Shown here one piece after another: positions 3,900 through 4,036 of a stretch of DNA of 64,000 nt. How positions within the stretch are numbered: the first letter of the stretch is position 1; every line of letters begins with the position of its first letter. The stretch spans positions 124,001-188,000 of the forward strand of contig CAIKAD010000002.1 in the NCBI GenBank assembly GCA_903825315.1, given 5' to 3'. The notes under the pieces were generated by a model. The model saw only the letters and a list, made by a program, of their open reading frames with translations. It was not told where the DNA came from and searched no databases. Both the position numbers and the translations under genes were made by a program. Origin of the DNA: an uncultured Candidatus Peregrinibacteria bacterium. GTDB taxonomy: Bacteria > Patescibacteriota > Gracilibacteria > Peribacterales > Peribacteraceae.

Positions 3900-4036
3900 T
3901 CTTTGAGAGCATCGTCAAGGTTTAGGTATGAGACAAGCGTTTTGCGCATGCGTGTGCGTAAGGCGCTTGTCTCGTCCGAGACAACCCGAAGCCAGCGGCA
4001 AACTGGTTTTCCTCTAGCTCTCGAAAGGAGAGTGTC
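3900..4036 (+). promoter_or_regulatory. Structured 5' leader, copy 1
   Basis: GAGACAAGCG (3930-3939)/CGCTTGTCTC (3964-3973) stem versus alternative TTGTCTC-GTCC-GAGACAA (3967-3984) hairpin; then CCAG-CGGCAAA-CTGG; conserved in copy 2. Confidence 0.65.

Follow-up and report, generated by a model that had tools for sequence, protein, structure and literature searches.

Antitermination by boxA and Nus factors is best known from rRNA operons and a few mRNAs, and helices between leader and trailer are known from rRNA. The hok-type toxin mRNAs fold back their 5' end onto their 3' end, with a long-range helix and alternative 5' hairpins. Structurally, the antitermination leader of rRNA operons consists of boxB, boxA, and boxC together with a leader-trailer helix, and a tethering of boxC to the polymerase has been proposed for rRNA (discussed in PMC10250234). 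Among mRNAs, suhB of Escherichia coli is regulated by boxA and represents a single gene near Nus autoregulation (PMC5725501), while the icaR mRNA of Staphylococcus aureus has a pairing between its 5' and 3' untranslated regions that covers the Shine-Dalgarno sequence (PMC3868564).

The window, i.e., the whole stretch of 64,000 nucleotides analyzed here, belongs to a genome of 1.29 Mb (G000; completeness, 99.6%) and contains two copies of a leader, each followed by an ORF (Table 1). A sequence-only reading had described copy 1 as a promoter followed by an RNA with two mutually exclusive hairpins and a further hairpin (P3) ahead of the ribosome-binding site, with a second, nearly identical copy. 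These parts are all present at the locus, those of copy 2 at positions 4925 to 5033. Two features escaped that reading, namely, a 5' element shared with the 16S rRNA leader and a strand some 790 nt further on, at the stop codon, that can pair with the leader. With these included, the leader is probably (we would put it at roughly 0.6) the 5' half of a transcript architecture resembling that of an rRNA operon, placed on a protein-coding gene and combining a boxA/Nus-type elongation signal with a leader-trailer helix. The region at positions 3360 to 3739 consists of a partial tRNA gene start (3360 to 3380), a small ORF (3432 to 3701) that by eye resembles a GIY-YIG endonuclease, and then directly a full tRNA gene (3667 to 3739).

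TABLE 1 Features of the two leader copies and their ORFs (positions within the window)
Feature	Position	Strand	Basis
Copy 1 promoter, TTGACT-17-TTATAT	3859..3887 (TTGACT 3859-3864, TTATAT 3882-3887)	+	sequence
Copy 1 boxA-like element, GTTCTTTGAGA plus GCATCG	3898..3914	+	exact pattern match; 10/11 to GYTCTTTAANA
Copy 1 T1 leader strand, UCAAGGUUUAGG, at the position of rRNA boxC	3915..3926	+	complementarity to stop-codon trailer, family-wide covariation
Copy 1 P2 strand 1, GAGACAAGCG	3930..3939	+	P2 covariation
Copy 1 P2 strand 2, CGCTTGTCTC, common to both alternative hairpins	3964..3973	+	covariation, coevolution
Copy 1 strand 3, GAGACAA, competes with strand 1 for strand 2	3978..3984	+	coevolution, p = 3e-4
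Copy 1 P3 hairpin, CCAG-CGGCAAA-CTGG	3992..4006	+	sequence
Copy 1 Shine-Dalgarno, AAAGGAG	4024..4030	+	sequence
ORF 1, 225 aa, ATG at 4037	4037..4714	+	without Pfam/NCBIfam match, purifying selection
Copy 1 T2, CTGAACCTTG, over TGA stop codon (4712-4714), pairs with T1	4711..4720	+	
Copy 1 intrinsic terminator	4795..4830	+	
Copy 2 promoter	4887..4915	+	
Copy 2 boxA-like element	4925..4941	+	
Copy 2 T1	4942..4953	+	
Copy 2 P2	4957..5000 (strand 1 4957-4966, strand 2 4991-5000)	+	
Copy 2 strand 3	5005..5011	+	
Copy 2 P3	5019..5033	+	
ORF 2, 187 aa, paralogue of ORF 1	5064..5627	+	
Copy 2 T2, CTGAACCTTG, over TGA stop codon	5624..5633	+	
Copy 2 terminator-like hairpin and T-run, same hairpin as copy 1	5707..5746	+	sequence

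Genome searches identified seven leader copies in G000, namely, the pair in the window, a second tandem pair on that contig (C2, about 245 to 246 kb), and single copies at C2:191.7k, C1:279.5k, and C1:395.7k. With a covariance model built from 15 leaders, matches at an E value of <=0.01 were obtained in 28 of the 74 genomes examined from G000's own GTDB family (about 21 with an E value of <1e-5), across about 20 genera of this one Patescibacteria family. Among 192 genomes sampled from the class, none outside the family matched, and a 380-genome sample of the phylum yielded weaker, diverged matches in 2 genomes of 2 other families, in which we recognized by eye the promoter, boxA-like site, P2, and ORF, one of the proteins resembling that of the window. 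Three leaders from other Patescibacteria families (L186, L187, and L188) keep the boxA-like site and P2 (GAGAYRRGC..GCUYGUCUC) and precede unrelated or distantly related proteins; outside the GTDB family, leader-trailer pairing is supported in L187, borderline in L188, and not supported in L186. The leader may be widespread across the phylum. No Rfam family matches it. As for viral spread, three IMG/VR pattern matches look like chance, and the one inspected (L190) sits among phage-like genes and is leaderless; a real leader is carried by L184, which comes from a 55-kb UViG that may be a mis-sorted bacterial contig.

The gene after the leader nearly always belongs to one protein family, for which neither Pfam nor NCBIfam gave a match. 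Its proteins, including those encoded at 4037 to 4714 and 5064 to 5627 of the window, are conserved in their core and variable toward the C terminus, where they end in SARKS-like residues, and dN/dS values of 0.18 to 0.52 in the five members tested indicate purifying selection. The AlphaFold model of the protein has a pLDDT of 60, which is too low for a structure search, and a scan for distant relatives returned few loci. Some homologues of the protein (in G001 and G002) have no recognizable leader.

Copy 1 is predicted to fold with a much lower energy than its dinucleotide shuffles (z = -5.8). P2, the long hairpin of strands 1 and 2 (10 bp in copy 1), is paired in 94% of cells over 31 aligned matches and shows two-sided changes at 11 of 18 pairs, whereas shuffles average 6 over the entire structure. 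With 7 leaders in the genome, 28 of the 74 family genomes, and these two-sided changes, conservation goes beyond a recent duplication, which, as the only cause, would have spoken against the sequence-only reading. In the alternative hairpin, part of strand 2 (TTGTCTC, 3967 to 3973) pairs across a GTCC loop with strand 3, and nearly every leader has this 2:3 pairing, if not always in the identical register. Over 21 nonredundant leaders, a leader's own strand 2 and downstream sequence give a lower energy than swapped partners (p = 3e-4), and the negative control, with strand 1 in place of strand 2, gives p = 0.68; compensated 2:3 helices are seen in L054 (UCUG/CAGA for CUUG/CAAG) and in L085 and L182 (CCUG/CAGG). 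By this comparative evidence, the two exclusive hairpins that use the common strand 2 are real, and both are maintained by selection. The sequence of P3 is variable, and a small GC-rich hairpin at its place is common in the family.

The exclusive folds had been likened to attenuators or riboswitches in the earlier description. Such a device, in which a ligand or protein would select between the 1:2 and 2:3 hairpins and so control a terminator or the ribosome-binding site, would fit the conservation of both helices and the coevolution of strands 2 and 3, as well as L085 (G078:C16, 1746 to 1854, minus strand). This leader has diverged and stands upstream of a gene for pyruvate phosphate dikinase, and behind its 2:3 hairpin come seven T, as in an intrinsic terminator. 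However, the canonical members have no U-tract or terminator after either hairpin, the 1:2 helix is the first to form and is stronger than 2:3 by several kcal/mol, and the accessibility of the Shine-Dalgarno sequence shows no consistent difference between the folds over 23 leaders, so this explanation is unsupported. The lack of an Rfam match speaks against a riboswitch, and the boxA-like site and the leader-trailer pairing would be left unexplained in either case, which is why we consider an attenuator or riboswitch unlikely.

Conservation within the leader is highest in a near-invariant 5' element, GTTCTTTSAGAGCATCG. Its GTTCTTTSAGA agrees at 10 of 11 positions with GYTCTTTAANA, a published boxA consensus for gamma-proteobacteria (PMC5725501), the mismatch being the S at position 8, where the consensus has A. 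The 16S rRNA leader of G000 carries GCTCCTTCACAGCATCG, and sites of this type were found in all 30 of the 16S leaders retrieved from the family, 93 to 284 nt upstream of the 16S gene. Scanning the genome with the degenerate pattern GYTCNTTNANARCATCG gave exactly seven perfect matches, corresponding to six of the seven mRNA leaders and the 16S leader; in relatives the pattern also occurs upstream of other genes (e.g., L173 and L176). Judged from its sequence, the 5' element of the leader is the boxA-like site of the rRNA operons of this lineage. Two structures involving the 5' region were discarded: a P1 mini-hairpin (GUUCU/AGAGC) is probably not real, as it is broken in c6, L049, and others and is not kept in the rRNA version, and a pairing of boxA with the Shine-Dalgarno sequence, present in the minimum free energy folds of copies 1 and 3, looked possible, on reading the sequences by eye, in only a few leaders.

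Boxes of this kind also head other candidate transcripts. At L102 (G000:C1:286721), a promoter and a boxA-like TGCTCTTTGAAAAC are found from position 1500, followed by about 400 nt of structured-looking sequence with no Rfam match and a terminator-like hairpin at its end, a possible unknown noncoding RNA. At L175 (G063:C1), a boxA-led transcript from position 403 has a leader strand with a 16-bp perfect partner 525 nt downstream and then a T-run.

Regarding the factors, G000 codes for NusB (PF01029, 109 bits), and nusB (C1:295041) is a neighbor of the RNase III gene (C1:295609), which lies 200 nt beyond. Rho was not found in G000, where TIGR00767 gave weak matches to ATP synthase subunits only; therefore, boxA cannot simply act here in its classical role against Rho and must do something else.

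The segment that follows boxA in the rRNA leaders (AUCGUGUAGUAGAGAA) can pair with the trailer 3' of 16S. Of 29 genomes, 25 have at least 10 bp of this complementarity, and G000 has 17 bp, compared to 8 to 11 bp at most in shuffles. The mRNAs have T1 (UCAAGGUUUAGG) behind boxA, and its complement, T2, is located where the downstream ORF ends, at or over the stop codon. The stop window outdoes every window of the ORF for pairing with T1 in 18 of 23 nonredundant mRNAs, and when T1 and T2 partners were permuted among these 23, 0 of 50,000 trials reached the cognate mean, with redundancy cut at 85%, which removes the relatedness of the mRNA sequences only partly. Divergent T1 strands come with matching T2 strands in L052 (CAAAGUUCAG/CUGAACUUUG), L054 (UCAGGAAGU/ACUUCCUGA), L055 (UUCACAGU/ACUGUGAA), and L057 (GGAGUUCAAG/CUUGAACUCC). 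Unconstrained folds of the mRNAs (670 to 1,100 nt) contained T1:T2 in 26 of 28 cases versus 60 of 168 with shuffled stop windows (p = 7e-9), and with 80 nt more of 3' sequence the counts were 21 of 28 versus 26 of 168 (p = 6e-10). The predicted fold of copy 1 varies with the chosen ends, and its T1:T2 taken alone gives a p of about 0.1 against dinucleotide shuffles, so the claim for T1:T2 rests on the family. The two hold-out loci were mixed: the second copy of L180 passed the ORF-window test, and L182 did not. The covarying complementarity of the post-boxA strand to the trailer that characterizes an rRNA-type helix is found here as well, with an ORF under purifying selection enclosed instead of rRNA.

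If this 5'-3' pairing acted on mRNA stability only, as an RNase III substrate like that of icaR, the likeness to boxA would be coincidental or a relict. T1:T2 and P2 are both double-stranded in the proposed structure, RNase III is encoded, and icaR sets a precedent; against this, the 17-nt element is common to all 16S leaders and has exact matches nowhere else in the genome, and the rRNA operon has the same order of boxA and then leader strand, so that we regard this explanation as improbable. A mobile gene cassette bounded by T1 and T2 as terminal inverted repeats, with no RNA role for them, would suit the duplicated, dispersed paralogues and the location of both tandem clusters directly after tRNA genes, but this reading is very unlikely, as T1 and T2 lie inside a conserved unit with the promoter and boxA outside T1 and the terminator outside T2, the rRNA operon shows the same order of elements, and most other loci have no tRNA neighbor.

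Under the rRNA-operon-like architecture that we favor, Nus protein binding and the physiological role are what we infer. The boxA-like site just past the promoter would recruit NusB-S10, with NusA and NusG, to the elongating polymerase, and T1, in the place of the rRNA boxC, would pair with T2 once the stop codon emerges. This helix, kept near the polymerase by the boxA complex, would turn the mRNA into a closed loop, and the stop codon would lie within or next to the paired strands. P2, which adjoins T1:T2, may be an RNase III site, and after the cut strand 2 could refold with strand 3 into a 5' hairpin, which would account for the retention of both hairpins. A bolder and tentative extension, for which the odds seem to us rather against than in favor, is that these transcripts form a class of pseudo-rRNA-operon mRNAs in Patescibacteria, tethered by Nus factors and closed cotranscriptionally by a leader-trailer helix in which the stop codon is buried. 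This would couple translation termination to mRNA closure and processing in bacteria in which Rho was not found, and the three-strand P2 region would report or reset the closed state.

Neither a combination of boxA and a leader-trailer helix in mRNAs nor a boxA in Patescibacteria was reported in the literature searched, which covered few subscription papers or preprints. A gene family of the candidate phyla radiation with both features would make rRNA-style transcription and processing testable on mRNAs, and the effect of a helix that buries the stop codon on termination and decay is directly testable. Possible gains for the cell are elongation through structured RNA, closure of the mRNA, or a coupling of termination and decay. 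The analysis also yields a conserved boxA/boxC pair for the rRNA operons of the lineage, of which we met no description in the literature searched.

Compared to the known systems, the leaders share with the hok-type mRNAs the long-range 5'-3' helix and the alternative 5' hairpins, although those mRNAs code for small hydrophobic toxins and have no known likeness to boxA or rRNA, while the proteins of the leader family, mostly of 160 to 300 aa, are not of that kind. As in icaR (PMC3868564), the mRNA's own 5' and 3' ends pair and may form an RNase III substrate; unlike in icaR, T1 lies about 100 nt upstream of the Shine-Dalgarno sequence, and T2 lies over the stop codon. With suhB they have in common a boxA within the 5' untranslated region of an mRNA, but no leader-trailer helix is described there (PMC5725501), whereas the G000 mRNAs have a predicted one, in a genome in which no Rho was found. 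The rRNA operon leader (PMC10250234) is similar in having boxA near the 5' end followed by the strand that pairs with the trailer, and the mRNA element is shared in sequence with the organism's own 16S leader. The mRNA unit differs from it in that boxB is not seen in the leader, an ORF is enclosed in place of the 16S rRNA, T1:T2 has 8 to 15 bp and overlaps the stop codon, and P2 and strand 3 are added.
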